Shown here: piece after piece, positions 9,813-30,067 of the stretch | Layout: the number at the start of each line of letters is the position of its first letter | How positions within the stretch are numbered: the stretch's first letter is position 1 | Assembly (NCBI GenBank): GCA_002753735.1 | Contig: PEAN01000028.1 | Coordinates: 1 to 51,722 of the forward strand | Source of the DNA: Magnetococcales bacterium DCbin4 | GTDB taxonomy: Bacteria; Pseudomonadota; Magnetococcia; Magnetococcales; UBA8363 | Length of the DNA: 51,722 nucleotides | Direction of reading: 5' to 3' | The notes under the pieces: generated by a model | The model's input: the letters and a program-made list of their open reading frames with translations, nothing else | Told to the model about the DNA's origin: nothing | Databases searched by the model: none | Program-made: the position numbers and the translations under genes

Positions 9813-10817
9813 TTGTCGGATCAAGACTCAGGCTACAAACTGCTGTTCAGCCATCCTGAAATGGTGCGTGACCTGCTCCGAGGTTTTGTCAAGGAGGCGT
9901 GGGTCGAACGGTTGGAGTTTTCCAGCCTGGAGAAGGTGAGCGGCAGCTATGTGGCCGACGACCTTCGTGACCGCGAGGATGATGTCATCTGGCGCGTGCG
10001 GTGGGGCACGGAATGGCTGTTCATCTATCTGCTCATGGAGTTTCAATCCACGGTGGATTGGACCATGTCGGTCAGGACGGATGCCTATGTGATGCTTCTG
10101 TACCAGGATCTGGTCAAGTCTGGAACGGTAAAAAGCGGACATCGACTGCCACCGGTCCTGCCCATCGTGCTGTACAACGGCAAGCCGGAATGGACGGCGG
10201 CCATGGATGTGGCGGACCTGATCGCACCGGTGCCCGGAGGGCTTGACCGTTATCGGCCACGCATGCGCTATCTGCTGATCGACGTGGTACGGTATGGAAA
10301 TGCCGAGTTGGCCTCCATGCACAACCTTGTCGCGGCGCTGTGCCGGTTGGAAAAAAGCCAAACGCCCGAGGAAATTCGTGTCGTGGTAAGGCTTTTGGTC
10401 GATTGGTTAAGCGCACCGGAGCAATTGGGTTTGCGGCGGGCGTTCACGGTGATGCTGGGGAGGGTGTTGCTGCCCCGGCGCGTTCCCGGGCAGATGATCC
10501 CTGAGTTGAATGATTTGAAGGAGGTTGATGCCATGCTGGCTGAAACTGTTCGAGAATGGACGAAGGAGTGGGAAGCAAAAGGTTGGCGTGAAGGCAAAAA
10601 GGAAGGCAAACAGGAAGGCAAACAGGAAGGCAAACAGGAAGGCAAAAAGGAAGGCGAGGCCATCATGTTGACACGTCAATTGCAACGCCGGTTCGGTTCC
10701 GTACCCGAATGGGCCCATCAAAAAATCGCCGGGGCTGAACCCCCCTCTCTGGAGGAGTGGAGCCTTCGAATATTGGATGCCCAATCCATGGAAGAAATTT
10801 TTGCTGAAAAGACATGA
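9813..10817 (+). CDS. Rpn-family recombination-promoting nuclease / DUF4351-type protein
   Basis: Belongs to the PD-(D/E)xK 'Rpn/transposase-like' proteins, DNA endonucleases linked to recombination and often mobile. YKLLFSHPEMVRDLLRGF near the N-terminus is the family opening. EDDVIWRV and LLMEFQS give the acidic residue and the E-x-Q of the nuclease core. The tail has lysine/glutamine-rich EGK repeats, then LQRRFG and WSLRILDA, typical of the C-terminal DUF4351 part. I place the start at TTG 9813 (MSDQDSGYKLLF), with GGAG at 9802-9805. The longer frame from 9696 translates a dispersed repeat. It lies between glycan genes and is probably a mobile passenger. Confidence 0.82.
   Translation: MSDQDSGYKLLFSHPEMVRDLLRGFVKEAWVERLEFSSLEKVSGSYVADDLRDREDDVIWRVRWGTEWLFIYLLMEFQSTVDWTMSVRTDAYVMLLYQDLVKSGTVKSGHRLPPVLPIVLYNGKPEWTAAMDVADLIAPVPGGLDRYRPRMRYLLIDVVRYGNAELASMHNLVAALCRLEKSQTPEEIRVVVRLLVDWLSAPEQLGLRRAFTVMLGRVLLPRRVPGQMIPELNDLKEVDAMLAETVREWTKEWEAKGWREGKKEGKQEGKQEGKQEGKKEGEAIMLTRQLQRRFGSVPEWAHQKIAGAEPPSLEEWSLRILDAQSMEEIFAEKT
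10589..10658 (+). repeat. 12-bp in-frame tandem repeat in the Rpn gene
   Basis: About five to six copies of GAAGGCAAACAG/GAAGGCAAAAAG, each coding for EGKQ or EGKK. The unit is a multiple of three, so copy-number change alters the linker length without breaking the frame. This kind of linker is common between nuclease core and tail in this family. Confidence 0.85.
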
Positions 10818-19197: not shown

Positions 19198-19248
19198 ACG
19201 CCAGAACTCCGGATAGTGTGCGTCACCATTCAGATCTCCCCACATTAA

Positions 19249-19354
19249 TTCTACTTTATCACATTCATTAATCAGGGATTATTGACACTCAAAAAATTAT
19301 TGAAAGAAAAAAAGGGGTCTGGGGGATTGCCCCCAGGACTTTGATTTTGTTTTT
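19249..19354. repeat. dispersed hairpin repeat, copy 6 (forward) with AT-rich leader
   Basis: The leader TTCTACTTTATCACATTC, then TTAATCAGG and TTGACACTC, runs into ATTATTGAAAG, the A-run, GGGGTCTGGGGG, ATTG and CCCCCAGGAC. The same leader occurs upstream of the copy at 28048. It shows that the full element is about 100 bp rather than just the hairpin. Confidence 0.85.
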
Positions 19355-20066
19355 CACGCGCCATTTCACCCGAAGCGATCTTCCCGTATGGGTTTTGCGG
19401 GAAGATCGCGTAGGCGCGAGCCTTGGTTTGCCTTTCTTCGCGCTTATGATTGATGCCTGCTCAATGGAATTCCAGTCTCGTGCCTTATGTGATCGACACC
19501 GTATCCATCCTAACACTTTTCTACCGATGGCGGAAAGTGGTCTTCGATGGGATGCCTTCTCTCTTTGAGTCCAGACAAGACTCGGAAGCGGCCAAGCTTC
19601 GGCAACGGAGGGAATGTGTGCGTTTTGAAACTCCGCTCGATCAATTTGGAGGGACGCGACCCATTGATCCTTGACGGAACGTCAACGCAAACCGGCTGCG
19701 GCCCGGGAACGTCGGGAAATGAAGCGGTCAAGTTGATCGGGTGAAGAATAAAACCGGTACAACGATATGAAACCTATTGACTTTTCAATCAATACGGAAG
19801 AGAGTTCCGCCACAGGCTGAAACCGGGGCTTGGCATCTGCTGGCGAGCAAACCTCCAAGGGATAACCCGGTTGGACTCGCCGAGTCGGGCATGTACGAGG
19901 GGTTGAATGTCCCCCGGTTTCCACCCATCGGACGGTAGACCCATCATGACTGAGAAAACGCAGTTCTCGTTGCGTGAATGTGCTGAAGAGAGACTGAAAG
20001 CCAGCTTATACGGGATCGCCGTTTGTCGGATTTGCGCCGAACCAGCCCAAAAAGGATGAAATCGCC
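19355..20066. other. gene-poor stretch, no confident gene
   Basis: Contains a perfect 12-bp hairpin at 19375-19409 and small frames on both strands without ribosome binding sites. One 37-codon frame (19947-20060, MTEKTQFSLRECAEERLK) ends just before the next gene, but its start has no clear binding site and I cannot support it. The stretch may be a decayed gene. The ribosome binding site AAGGAT of the next gene lies at its right end. Confidence 0.4.
19375..19409. repeat. perfect 12-bp inverted repeat
   Basis: GCGATCTTCCCG and CGGGAAGATCGC around an 11-base loop (TATGGGTTTTG). There is no T-run behind it on either strand, so an operator site, a structured RNA or a mobile-element end fits better than a terminator. 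No gene starts close by. Confidence 0.6.
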
Positions 20067-25574: not shown

Positions 25575-26657
25575 TCAGCGTATCTTCAGTGTAGCCAGCC
25601 CGATGAGGGCCAGGATGATGGAGATGATCCAAAAACGGACGATGATCTTGGGTTCCGCCCACCCTTTGAGTTCAAAGTGGTGATGAATGGGGGCCATGCG
25701 GAAGACCCGTTTCCCGGTCAGTTTGAACGAGGCCACCTGGAGGATGACCGAAAAGGTTTCCAATACGAAAATGCCACCGATGATGGCCAGAACGACCTCA
25801 TGGCGGGTGACCATGGCGATGGCCCCCAGCGCTGCCCCCAGGGACAGCGAGCCGACATCGCCCATGAATACCTGGGCCGGATAGGTGTTGAACCATAAAA
25901 AACCGAGGGCGGCGCCGACCATCGCACCACAGAAAATCGCCAGTTCTCCCGCCCCCGCCACATAGGGAATCCCCAGATAGCCGGCAAAATGGACATGACC
26001 GACGACGTAGGCGATGATCATGAAACTGGCGGCGGTCAGCATGGAGGGACCGATGGCCAGGCCATCGAGACCGTCGGTCAGGTTGACGGCATTTCCTGCG
26101 CCGACGATCACCAGAATGGTGAAGGGAAAGAACCACCAACCCAGATCCAGAACCTGTTTGGTGAAGGGGAAACTGAGGTACCCAAAGGTATTGCCATCGC
26201 TCCATTCAAGTCCTGCCGCCATGAGCAGGGCAATGGCCGATTGCAGCAGGAAGCGGGTTCGTCCCGAAACCCCACGGCTGTGCTGGCGGGTGACCTTGAC
26301 GTAGTCATCCCAGAAACCGATGGCACCGAATCCCAGGGTGACCATCAACACCATGATGACATAGGGATTGGCCAGGTTGGCCCATAAAAAGGTGGGGACC
26401 GACACCGCCAGGAGGATCAGGGTTCCCCCCATGGTCGGGGTCCCTTTCTTTTCCAACAGATGACGTTGAGGGCCATCTTCCCGGATCGGTTGTCCGCCCG
26501 CCTGAACCGCTTGAAGGCCCCGGATCAGCAGGGGCCCCAGGAGAAACGAAAGCACCAGAGCGGTCAGCGCGGCGGCGATGGAACGCAACGTGATGTATTT
26601 CAACAGGTTCAAAAAGTTGAATTGGTCACTCAGTGGATAGAGCAGATTATACAGCAT
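25575..26657 (-). CDS. mraY: phospho-N-acetylmuramoyl-pentapeptide transferase
   Basis: Integral membrane enzyme making lipid I from UDP-MurNAc-pentapeptide and undecaprenyl phosphate, with Mg. [17 protein letters not shown] has the D-D pair, [13 protein letters not shown] is the nucleotide-binding loop, and [16 protein letters not shown] is the third catalytic block. About ten helices; 360 residues is the family length. The start overlaps the end of murF by eleven bases, and its stop is one base before the murD start. Confidence 0.97.
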
Positions 26658-28032
26658 GATGGCAAAGATCCTCGACGATACGTTCCATTTTCATTCCTCT
26701 TGATCCCTTGACCAGGATGAGATCACCTGGCTGGCACAACCCGGGCAGAACTCCGATCCATTCGCCGGCATCCTGGCGATGTTCAACCTTCAGGTTGGGG
26801 TGTTGGGCAAGAAGCCGGGCGAGATGATGCATGAGGGGGCCGGTGGCGAACAACCGCGAAACCCCGGCCTTGATGACGGCGTCCGCCAACTCCAGATGCA
26901 GTTGTTCTGCGGATGTCCCCAGTTCGAGCATGTCGCCGAGTACGGCGATGCGGCGATGCCGGGTTCCGCTGCCCAGGCGTACCAGGGCTGCGGTCATGGA
27001 ACCGGGATTGGCATTGTAGGTGTCATCGATGACCCACCATCCTCCGGGGGCGGCGATGACCTGACCCCGTCCCTTTTGCAGGCGGAATTCCGCCAGGCCA
27101 CGGACAATGGCGGCAACAGGGGTGCCGGCGGCGTGGGCTGCGGCTGCGGCTGCCAGGGCATCATCGACGAGATGTTGTCCCGAGGCTTCGAGCCGTACAT
27201 GGGCTGCCGTTTCTCCCGGAAGGTGAAGCTCGAACGTCACCCATCCCCCGTGATCTTCGATGGCCCTGGCTGTGACCTGGGCCTGTTCGTCCACGCCAAA
27301 ACCGAGCCGGCGTTTTGGTGTGGTCATCTGTGTCAGAATGGGGGTTTCCCACCGTTTGGCAGGAAGAATCGCGACTCCGTCGGCGGGGAGTGCCTGCAAC
27401 AGCTCACCTTTGGCCCGGGCGATGTCGGCCAGACTGGAAAAGGCGGCGATATGGGCCGGGTGAACATTGGTGACGACACCGATCCCGGGTTCGGCGATGG
27501 TTGCCAGATGGGTGATCTCTCCTGCGGCGCTCATGCCCATTTCTGCCACCAGGGCCTGACAATTGGACGGCATCGACAGCAAGGTCAATGGCAGGCCGAT
27601 ATGATTGTTCAGATTGCCGCGTGTGGCATGGACCTGGTGAACATGCTGCCCGAGACACAGGGAGAGCATCTCCTTGACGGTCGTTTTGCCGCTGGAACCG
27701 GTCACGGCGATCACGATGGGATCGACCTGTCGCCGCCAGGCCCGGGCCAGGCGGGTGAGGGCGGCGAGAACCCCACGGACCCGAATGATCGGTACGGGCG
27801 CCGTTCCTTGCCATTCCTCTTCCACCAAAAGTGCGCGTGCCCCGTTTGCAATGGCTTTGGGAATGAATTCATGCCCGTCAAAGCTGGGTCCCGACAGGGC
27901 GGCAAACCATTGGCCGGGGACCAGGGTACGGGTATCGATCGAGACCCCTTCCAACTCCAGGTTGCCGCCGGAGGGGATGTTTTCCATGACAGGGTTCAAT
28001 GTGCGTTGGATAAAGCCCAGATCGGGTTTCAT
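26647..28032 (-). CDS. murF: UDP-N-acetylmuramoyl-tripeptide--D-alanyl-D-alanine ligase
   Basis: Joins D-Ala-D-Ala to the UDP-MurNAc tripeptide. [15 protein letters not shown] is the ATP-binding loop, [21 protein letters not shown] is the central-domain block, and [17 protein letters not shown] leads into the C-terminal domain. I start at ATG 28032, with AAGGAGG seven bases upstream; the TTG one codon earlier is too close to that site. The strong own ribosome binding site contrasts with the coupled starts elsewhere in the operon. It fits the 0.5 kb repeat element that separates it from murE. Confidence 0.96.
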
Positions 28033-28047
28033 CAAAATACCTCCTTG

Positions 28048-28535
28048 ATTCTACTGTATCATATTCATTAATCAGAGACATTGACATTCAAAAAATTATT
28101 GAAAGAAAAAAGGGGTCTGGGGGATTGCCCCCAGGGTTTTGATTTTGGTTTTGACTTTGTTTTTGATTTTACAGCCCCCACAGGGGGTGTGGGGGACGAA
28201 GTCCCCCTGGTTTTGTGTTTTTCTTTTCCCGAACCCGGGACGCATTTTGAAATCAGAATCAAAACCAACCCCCTGGAGGCAATTTCCCGGATTCATGGGG
28301 AAAAGATGAGACCAAAACCAGGATCAAAAGCAAAACCAGGATCAAAAGCAAAACCAGGATCAAAAGCAAAACCAGGATCAAAAGCAAAACCAGGATCAAA
28401 AGCAAAACCAAAACCTGGGGGACTTCGCCCCCCCCACACCCCCTGTGGGGGCTGTAAAATCAAAACCAAAATCAAAATCAAAATCCTGGGGGCAATCCCC
28501 CAGACCCCTTTTTTCTTTCAATATTTTTATACATA
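28048..28535. repeat. composite palindromic repeat element between murE and murF
   Basis: This 0.5 kb spacer is built from nested inverted copies. The outer arms are the dispersed hairpin repeat, forward with leader at 28048-28149 and reverse at about 28484-28520. Inside are a CAGCCCCCACAGGGGGTGTG block (about 28172-28210) and its inverse at about 28412-28457. In the centre is a five-copy 18-bp tandem repeat. A long frame crosses it on each strand only because the repeats lack stops; I do not call a gene. It interrupts an otherwise tightly overlapping operon. Confidence 0.85.
28315..28404. repeat. 18-bp tandem repeat, five exact units
   Basis: Unit AAACCAGGATCAAAAGCA, five contiguous copies with no spacers, so not a CRISPR array. 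It sits at the centre of the murE-murF composite element. The forward frame would read KPGSKA repeats. Confidence 0.95.
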
Positions 28536-28564
28536 TCATTCAACGGTCAGCCATCCTTCCCAGT

Positions 28565-30067
28565 TTAGGATGGGCGGGAAAAACCCAGTTCCTTGAGATG
28601 GTGAAGTGCCCATTGGCGATCATCAAAGGGAAGGGTTTGTGCTCCGATGATCTGAACGGTTTCATGCCCTTTGCCGACAATCAATACACAATCCCCCGGT
28701 TGTGCCAATCCAAGGGCATGACCGATGGCCCGGGCACGATCAGGGATTTCTTCAGCCCGGTTGCCGCCACGGATGACACCGCGCAACACGGCGGTACGGA
28801 TTTCCCCGGGCGATTCATTGCGGGGATTGTCGTCGGTGACGATGACCCGGTGGGCCAACCGTCCAGCCAGCTCTCCCATGATGGGACGTTTGGCGGCATC
28901 CCGGTTGCCGCCACACCCGAAGACCAGGATGATCTGCCCTTGAAGCGCCATCGCCCCGACGGTTTCCAATAAATTTTTCAAAGCATCGGGGGTATGGGCA
29001 TAATCGACGAAAACACTGAAGGGTTGACCTCGGTTGACCGGTTCCATCCGTCCTGGCTGGGGGGTGAAGCGGGCCAGTCCCCGGGCAATCGATTCCAGGC
29101 TGGCCCCCAGCCGTCCTGCCAGGGCGGCGGCAGCGACTGCATTGGCAATGTTGAAGGCGCCGCAGACCGGCAGACGGATCGCCCGGGATCCCTGGGGGGT
29201 GGCGAGGAGAAAATGACTCGCATCCCAATCCATCCGGATCTCTTTGGCCCGATAATCGCCCCGTGCCGGTGCCCGTTGCAGGGTGAATCCCAACACTTCG
29301 GTATGAGGTGCTGCCATGCGTGCCAGTTCGCGGCCATGGGGGTCGTCCAGGTTGATGATGGAAAACCGGGGCGGGCGGTCGAGGAACAGGCGGGCCTTGG
29401 CGGTAAAATAGGCATCGACATCACCATGATAATCCAGGTGATCATGGCTCAGATTGGTGAACACGGCGCACTGCCAGGCGATGGCTTCGGTCCGCTGTTG
29501 TTGCAGGGCGTGGGAGGAAACTTCCATCACCACTGTCCGGCATTGTGCCTGCGCCATCCGTGCCAGCAAGGCGTGCAGGGTGGGTGCATCGGGCGTCGTC
29601 ATGCCGGTTTCCGCCGTCATCCCCGGGGCGCGGACCCCCGTCGTTCCGATGACTCCGGTGGCGATGCCCTCCTGCCTGAGGATCGTTTCGGTCATGGCGG
29701 CTACGGTGGTCTTGCCGTTGGTACCGGTAATGGCTGCCATGGCCATGCTGCGGCAGGGATGGCCATGAAAGGCGGAGGAGAGACGTGATAATGCCTTGGC
29801 GGGGTCGGGATGGATCAAATGCGCAAGCGTTGGGGGAAGTCGGGTCTCCCCCTGATCCAGAATGGCCGCTGCCTGCCGCCGCATCGCATCTTCAATGAAC
29901 AGCGTCCCGCGGGAACGCCATCCGGAAAGGGCCGCAAACAGATGCCCGGGACGGATCTGGCGCGAATCACACACCAGGCCGGAAATCTCGCGATCACTTC
30001 CTTCGTAACGCAATCCTTCAAGGCCTGAAAGTTCGATCAATCTGGAAACATGGATCAAAGGGGTCAT
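28565..30067 (-). CDS. murE: UDP-N-acetylmuramoyl-L-alanyl-D-glutamate--2,6-diaminopimelate ligase
   Basis: Adds meso-diaminopimelate to the growing peptidoglycan peptide. ITGTNGKTTVAAM is the ATP loop, TTPDAPTLHALLARM and VSSHALQQQR are substrate blocks, and DDNPRNESPGE carries the D-N-P-R motif that selects diaminopimelate over lysine, so the wall is probably the standard Gram-negative type. The start ATG overlaps the ftsI stop by four bases (ATGA). The stop is followed by the composite repeat, which could uncouple or partly terminate transcription before murF. Confidence 0.96.
   Translation of the reverse strand: MTPLIHVSRLIELSGLEGLRYEGSDREISGLVCDSRQIRPGHLFAALSGWRSRGTLFIEDAMRRQAAAILDQGETRLPPTLAHLIHPDPAKALSRLSSAFHGHPCRSMAMAAITGTNGKTTVAAMTETILRQEGIATGVIGTTGVRAPGMTAETGMTTPDAPTLHALLARMAQAQCRTVVMEVSSHALQQQRTEAIAWQCAVFTNLSHDHLDYHGDVDAYFTAKARLFLDRPPRFSIINLDDPHGRELARMAAPHTEVLGFTLQRAPARGDYRAKEIRMDWDASHFLLATPQGSRAIRLPVCGAFNIANAVAAAALAGRLGASLESIARGLARFTPQPGRMEPVNRGQPFSVFVDYAHTPDALKNLLETVGAMALQGQIILVFGCGGNRDAAKRPIMGELAGRLAHRVIVTDDNPRNESPGEIRTAVLRGVIRGGNRAEEIPDRARAIGHALGLAQPGDCVLIVGKGHETVQIIGAQTLPFDDRQWALHHLKELGFSRPS

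Follow-up and report, generated by a model that had tools for sequence, protein, structure and literature searches.

A composite palindromic element lies between murE and murF in the cell-wall operon of a Magnetococcales bacterium, and we consider it likely that this element is a mobile, terminator-bearing, MITE-like copy that lowers read-through into murF-mraY-murD-ftsW. The element was found in a stretch of 51,722 nucleotides (the window), which is contig C138 of G000, a 4.52-Mb draft genome of 148 contigs. The family to which it belongs is a mobile-type repeat and not an operon-specific device. Judged from its letters, the element is a composite, MITE-like repeat of a known kind, of a family that is unreported and in a variant that is unusually elaborate.

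The operon is encoded on the minus strand in the order mraW, ftsL, ftsI, murE, element, murF, mraY, murD, ftsW. The genes flanking the element are MurE-like and MurF-like according to their Mur-ligase domains (Pfam) and their position between the FtsI-type transpeptidase and MraY. The murE gene (28565-30067, minus strand, 500 amino acids) was placed using its Pfam Mur ligase domains and the corresponding junctions in relatives; a MurE of 75% identity is found in L057 (contig JADFZF010000137, labelled Magnetococcales bacterium). The murF gene (26647-28032, minus strand) likely begins with the ATG at 28032, the mechanical ORF being 26647-28035, and the Shine-Dalgarno sequence AAGGAGG is located just upstream of this ATG. 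A sequence-only reading had proposed that a composite palindromic element interrupts an otherwise compact operon at this point while leaving murF a strong ribosome binding site, and both parts of this proposal are borne out. According to the ORF coordinates, mraW and ftsL have 1 base in common, the ftsL/ftsI and ftsI/murE junctions are overlaps of 4 bases, and mraY and murD are separated by a gap of 1 base. AAGGAGG is in place, and GGAGGTAT also precedes murF in the element-free relative G007. The bounds given in that reading, 28033-28564, hold in part: the element proper, with its nested repeat, extends from 28049 to about 28567, and the start at 28033 was too early, taking in the murF Shine-Dalgarno sequence, which resembles that of G007. 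As the element reaches about 28567, it includes the murE stop codon; the TAA at 28565-28567 aligns inside the right end of the element.

Repeat analysis recovered all the nested inverted repeats and the 18-bp array that had been described at first. Three pairs of inverted-repeat arms were detected, at 28082-28164/28456-28538 (83 nt, 88% complementary), 28141-28195/28431-28485 (55 nt, 95%) and 28175-28220/28404-28449 (46 nt, 80%), together with an 18-bp tandem array at 28313-28410 (plus strand, 5.4 units, 100% matches). Reading from the murF side, the left outer end, denoted TIR1 (28049-28066, plus strand), has 3 mismatches to TTCTACTTTGTCACATTC and is flanked by TTGA, which is YTAR with one change. 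The left inner end (28081-28105, plus strand, TTGACATTC..ATTATTGAAAG) resembles TIR2, the terminal repeat of an IS5-family element. Next come the left copies of three hairpins: the core hairpin HP_A (28110-28135, plus strand), an exact match, HP_B (28175-28195, plus) and HP_C (28191-28210, minus). Their right copies follow in mirrored order, HP_C at 28414-28433 (plus), HP_B at 28431-28451 (minus) and HP_A, again exact, at 28485-28510 (minus). The right end, of the type denoted RE (28515-28567, minus strand), lacks its outermost TIR1 part, and the murE stop lies in the remainder; no readable target duplication was found at this copy. The loss of the right outer terminal repeat and the mismatches in the left one are consistent with an old, dead insertion that is tolerated since read-through suffices and that has no regulatory role. 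We regard this explanation as possible and rather doubtful, because both core hairpins are exact and the arms have remained 80-95% complementary.

The mechanical frame of 171 amino acids over this copy had no Pfam match, and a search of a plasmid collection yielded no match. An Rfam search of the whole window returned an rpsB sRNA match over the element, which was rejected as its identity: at 29.3 bits (E 0.062) it is below the gathering score of 40 and was taken as chance.

The stems have the features of intrinsic terminators. A scan detected 10 terminator-like sites in the window element, where 1.8 were expected. Among the distinct core hairpins retrieved, 135 of 138 carry an outward T tract (at least 5 T in 8, read outward from the hairpin), compared with 5.9% at random places of the same sequence, so that a GC-rich hairpin is joined to a T tract as in an intrinsic terminator. 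Under a strict rule applied to seven minimal elements, one had a terminator in both directions, five in one direction and one in neither. On sequence grounds, this anatomy of hairpins with T tracts points to transcription termination more specifically than to an RNA hairpin alone.

Group II introns provide a further line of evidence. Domain V of these introns (Rfam RF00029) was detected in all six loci examined with Rfam. At three of them, one in the own genome, the sequence 3' of the intron (the 3' exon) is a T tract followed by a TIR1 or TIR2-like end; the intron-bearing stretches are L153:1-67, L272:1825-1895 and L273:1307-1377. The 5' exon of the intron in L272 is the core hairpin plus AGACC. 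At L274, L275 and L276 no intron was found at an element T tract, the hairpin in L275 being some 550 bases away. Class C group II introns are described as inserting at intrinsic terminators (in the part of PMC4424553 consulted), and because of this target site we infer that the introns at the element T tracts are class C. The positions of the introns thus independently support the terminator reading of the stems.

The strand transcribed from murE to murF is predicted to fold with a minimum free energy of -274.9 kcal/mol, compared with -165.0 (sd 5.9) for 100 dinucleotide shuffles (z -18.7, none as good), in agreement with the strong RNA folding anticipated at first. Through such a fold the MurE to MurF ratio might be altered, as the sequence-only reading suggested. 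This fold and the long, nearly complementary arms would also suit a processed RNA, in which the read-through transcript folds and RNase III cuts the stem, leaving separate murE and murF mRNAs of different stability. RNase III cleavage of transcripts containing Correia elements is described (PMC10969869, as excerpted). We hold such processing, which is argued by analogy, to be the less probable course, since the T tracts and the introns inserted there are features of terminators that RNase III does not need; both processes may occur.

The sequence-only reading had made its proposal depend in part on whether the same element recurs elsewhere in the genome, and the genome-wide search revealed many further copies. 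With an E cut-off of 1e-3, blastn against the own genome found at least 157 matches, a lower bound because scoring covered 40 of the 481 candidates of the first look. The core hairpin AAGGGGTCTGGGGGATTGCCCCCAGG, allowed up to 3 mismatches, matches 225 places in the 4.52 Mb (none for the backwards-pattern control), and the outer end TTCTACTTTGTCACATTC has 159 matches genome-wide (5 for its backwards control). Many of the places among the matches listed are near contig ends, suggesting that the family tends to break assembly. An element match was detected in 29 of the 61 genomes searched, the own genome included, and every one of the 8 genus members is in that number. Ten loci from other families of the order were viewed, and in 8 the stem could be seen by eye, with no TIR1 or TIR2 alongside; the remaining two, L036 and L052, are something else. 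The window itself holds a second, truncated copy (19245-19420, plus strand), with TIR1 at 19249-19266 and HP_A at 19312-19337. Its interior is of another type, with a hairpin flanked by GCGCC..GGCGC and a TTTTGCG-like loop. A 12-bp tandem array of 5.5 copies was also seen at 10590-10655 of the window.

In the retrieved stretches the complete TIR1 elements measure 168 to 509 bp; two shorter TIR1 pairs span 72 and 97 bp, and one row of 229 bp spans two neighbouring ends. The order of parts, read inward, is a YTAR flank, TIR1, an inner end and the stem GGGGTCTGGGGG. Inner ends are of two types, LE with the motif TTGACACTC and RE with GGATGGCTGG, and the LE motif resembles TIR2 (GGGCGTGTTGACATTC), with which a separate class of copies terminates. 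In L008 and L010 the stem is enclosed by an outer end of a third kind, which is GTAACTGCCCGGGTACC-like. As TIR1, TIR2 and GTAACTGCCCGGGTACC-like ends are all found around one stem, the stem is carried by several kinds of ends. Two TIR1 ends stand in tandem, 23 bp apart, in L129 (G000:C31:58-98) and L194 (G000:C127:31580-31620), an arrangement that could come from duplication of an end or from the insertion of one element next to another.

The interior varies between copies. Tandem arrays are present in 42 of 139 retrieved clusters, with units of 12 and 18 bp that differ from copy to copy. The interior hairpin stems of L157:1488-1996, L126, L034, L038 and L044 likewise vary, each being still complementary, and their loops (CGCG-TTTTT-GCG-like) and flanks are alike. 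The site directly after gatB in another genus allows copies at one position to be compared: an element is found there in 3 of the 9 genomes examined (L289, L290, L291), and G027 and G033, whose GatB proteins are 98% identical, have outer stems in common around interiors that differ, the third genome with an element downstream of gatB being G046. This is an indication that copies exchange their loop cargo, and only an indication, because it comes from one locus.

To learn about the mobility of the family we considered the ends and their flanks. At 75 distinct TIR1 ends the flank follows YTAR, with Y at -4 in 64, T at -3 in 72, A at -2 in 62 and R at -1 in 63. TTAA is present on both sides of L156, L171 and L201, the flanks of L140 and L151 are CTAA/TTAA, and those of L131, L139, L154, L157, L196 and L205 do not match on both sides. 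A YTAR-type target is typical of IS5. The target of the TIR1 ends is of this type, and an IS5-family insertion sequence of the sister genomes is flanked by CTAG. TIR2 is the terminal repeat of that complete 852-bp element (L224:1095-1946), which has CTAG at both ends and two overlapping frames that both score above the cut-off of the NCBIfam model NF033580 (IS5-family transposase) and also match Pfam DUF4096 or DDE_Tnp_1. A search of the 8 genus genomes detected transposases of this type in 5, mostly as fragments, and none in the own genome; decayed copies of the L224 insertion sequence were seen in sister genomes. The 30 DDE_Tnp_1, 11 Y1_Tnp and 9 DDE_3 loci of the genus yielded no insertion sequence bounded by TIR1, and the lone TIR1 matches in L229, L239 and L248 had no partner on the other side. 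TIR1 copies would be mobilised in trans. An IS630-type (DDE_3) transposase was rejected as the mobiliser, its 9 loci showing no TIR1 and one loose TIR3-like match (L285), and so was a Y1 transposase, whose 11 loci lack the core hairpins. The copies are short and non-coding, the complete ones have terminal inverted repeats (the window copy being without the right outer one), their target is fixed according to the YTAR consensus and the TTAA pairs, and they are dispersed, with empty sites in relatives, all of which are the attributes of a MITE.

To determine gene context, genes in the retrieved stretches were called by a simple codon-score method, which gets murD in the window wrong. Of the 139 clusters, 136 contain a core hairpin or TIR1, and 47 of these have a called gene on one side only. 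The 89 clusters resolved on both sides comprise 37 at convergent, 44 at tandem and 7 at divergent junctions and 1 inside a called ORF; in the same stretches 16 of 128 background gene pairs are convergent (Fisher p 1e-6). The bias gives p 5e-5 with non-overlapping pairs and 6e-4 with background gaps of at least 50 bp, and weakens to 0.04 at gaps of at least 100 bp and 0.06 at 150 bp or more; the sample is non-random, exact and best matches having been fetched first. Copies favour convergent gene junctions. Intergenic palindromes enriched at such junctions recall REP/BIME-type repeats, which are spread by a Y1 transposase (RAYT), REPs being found mainly between convergent and unidirectional genes according to the consulted portion of PMC3733652. 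We consider membership in this class improbable. Here the units measure 168-509 bp, far from the 20-40 bp of a REP, and have IS-type ends flanked by YTAR; the own genome has one weak Y1_Tnp match and G002 none, and 10 of the 11 Y1_Tnp loci are without ends or core hairpins, the eleventh having one TIR1 match.

Examination of the murE-murF junction in relatives showed that it is empty in 5 of the 7 other genus members: murE and murF overlap by ATGA in G007, G006 and G002 and are 13 bases apart in G001 and G005. The remaining two, G003 and G004, have a related element with TIR2-type ends, inside which lie the start of the murF contig and the end of the murE contig, and we infer that the two contigs join at this element. 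These data also bear on whether the junction in the window is an artefact, a collapsed repeat having joined unrelated contigs at murE and murF of a metagenome bin. Family copies are often at contig ends and long palindromes are hard to assemble; however, murE and murF are adjacent in relatives, and the contig ends of G003 and G004 show a related element both at murE and at murF, which makes such a misjoin highly improbable.

In trees built from the combined MurE and MurF of 13 genomes, G003 and G004 are sisters (UFBoot 100) and G000 is placed elsewhere; a group of six without G000 and G006 has UFBoot 92, and the place of G003/G004 within it is weak (51). A single ancestral insertion common to G000, G003 and G004 is disfavoured by the different ends and by trees that do not group the three. 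Since a history of two gains is more parsimonious than one of a single gain with two losses, and since the ends differ, the same junction was probably hit twice, independently, by related elements. MurE ends about 5-6 residues earlier in the three element-bearing genomes than in G007 and G002, but that of the element-free G001 and G005 ends equally early, so a shortened MurE is not diagnostic.

A putative promoter is located in the murF-side end of the element. ATGTCA-18-TATGAT (28087-28058, minus strand), a consensus match that was picked post hoc and points at murF, is the sole promoter-like site that the operon strand has between 22900 and 35600, an interval in which both strands together hold 8 such sites against 5.1 expected, near chance. 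The consensus end reads TGTGAC at the position of TATGAT (42 of 67 ends), and TATGAT occurs in the mur copy alone; outward promoter-like sites of any kind were found at 4 of 67 ends. By the same rule no promoter-like site was detected within 150 bases upstream of murF in the seven other genus members, the sequence scanned being 109 bases in G004 and 123 in G003. Promoter supply as a general rule is unsupported, the elements of G003 and G004 having no promoter-like site. As read from the motif, the murF-side end of the copy in the window perhaps carries a promoter. That a related insertion is tolerated at this junction in G003 and G004, where no promoter is recognisable, would also fit the dead insertion considered above.

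Together, the evidence favours a mobile element that brought terminators into the operon. As we picture it, the element is built in shells, with outer terminal inverted repeats at YTAR targets and, inside them, a stem whose halves, read outward, would each present hairpins and then T tracts, forming predicted terminators in both directions; the loop would hold additional palindromes and short tandem arrays, both varying among copies. A transposase working in trans probably placed the element close to the end of murE. At present the element appears to provide the murE stop codon, and the insertion seems to have left the murF ribosome binding site intact. At least three terminator-like hairpins in the direction of the operon would stand between murE and murF, and read-through from the upstream genes is most likely lowered or stopped. 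Expression of murF-mraY-murD-ftsW would then rely on the read-through that remains or on a promoter closer by, for which ATGTCA-18-TATGAT is the candidate.

Several known repeats share part of this design, and the comparisons follow the excerpted descriptions of each. BrickBuilt of Porphyromonas gingivalis is an intergenic MITE with a 23 nt minisatellite, IS5-family-like terminal repeats and 19 copies (PMC4596501). The present element is like it in being intergenic and in having an internal minisatellite and IS5-family-like ends, a likeness of description and not of sequence; unlike BrickBuilt, for which the excerpt describes no nested terminator stems, hundreds of hairpins are found here. Chunjie of Geobacter uraniireducens is a MITE of 178-235 bp (PMC10969869) that resembles the present family in its high copy number and in having one copy inside an operon, but its description, in the portion consulted, includes neither the nested hairpin nor the tandem array that the present element has. 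The same source, as excerpted, describes the Correia elements of Neisseria as MITEs near genes with promoters and RNase III sites; host and architecture differ from ours, and terminators are not among the features it gives for Correia. It also describes the pneumococcal BOX, RUP and SPRITE as intergenic repeats that insert into one another, SPRITE being rho-independent terminator-like; these are clusters of separate elements, whereas here concentric shells lie in one palindrome. REPs, extragenic palindromes of 20-40 bp for which an RNA function is proposed (PMC3733652, as excerpted), share with the present family the extragenic position and the bias towards convergent and unidirectional genes, but here the units are larger and no RAYT association was seen at the 11 Y1_Tnp loci. 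Thus IS5-type ends combined with a minisatellite, location in an operon and the presence of promoters or RNase III sites are each known already from MITEs, and repeats that are nested or terminator-like are known as well. The literature search returned no paper describing the Magnetococcales family, the concentric combination, the repeated murE-murF hit or the intron association, and family sequence strings appeared only in papers with unrelated titles.

A wider hypothesis, which we offer as speculative and on the whole unlikely to hold in every part, is that the family acts as a mobile terminator cassette across the Magnetococcales, borrowing the ends of insertion sequences, swapping loop cargo and rewiring operons, with an end that may become a promoter; it would have struck the same essential-gene junction independently in two lineages and would serve as a landing pad for class C introns. 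Its concentric architecture would show how non-autonomous elements exchange the ends that mobilise them, and group II introns at the stems would offer a natural means of locating terminators in bacteria that have not been cultured. Should the terminators prove functional, the coupling of an essential cell-wall operon has been broken twice at one junction by a mobile-type repeat, which would make it possible to test how tight the coupling of MurE and MurF expression must be and how repeats break operons.
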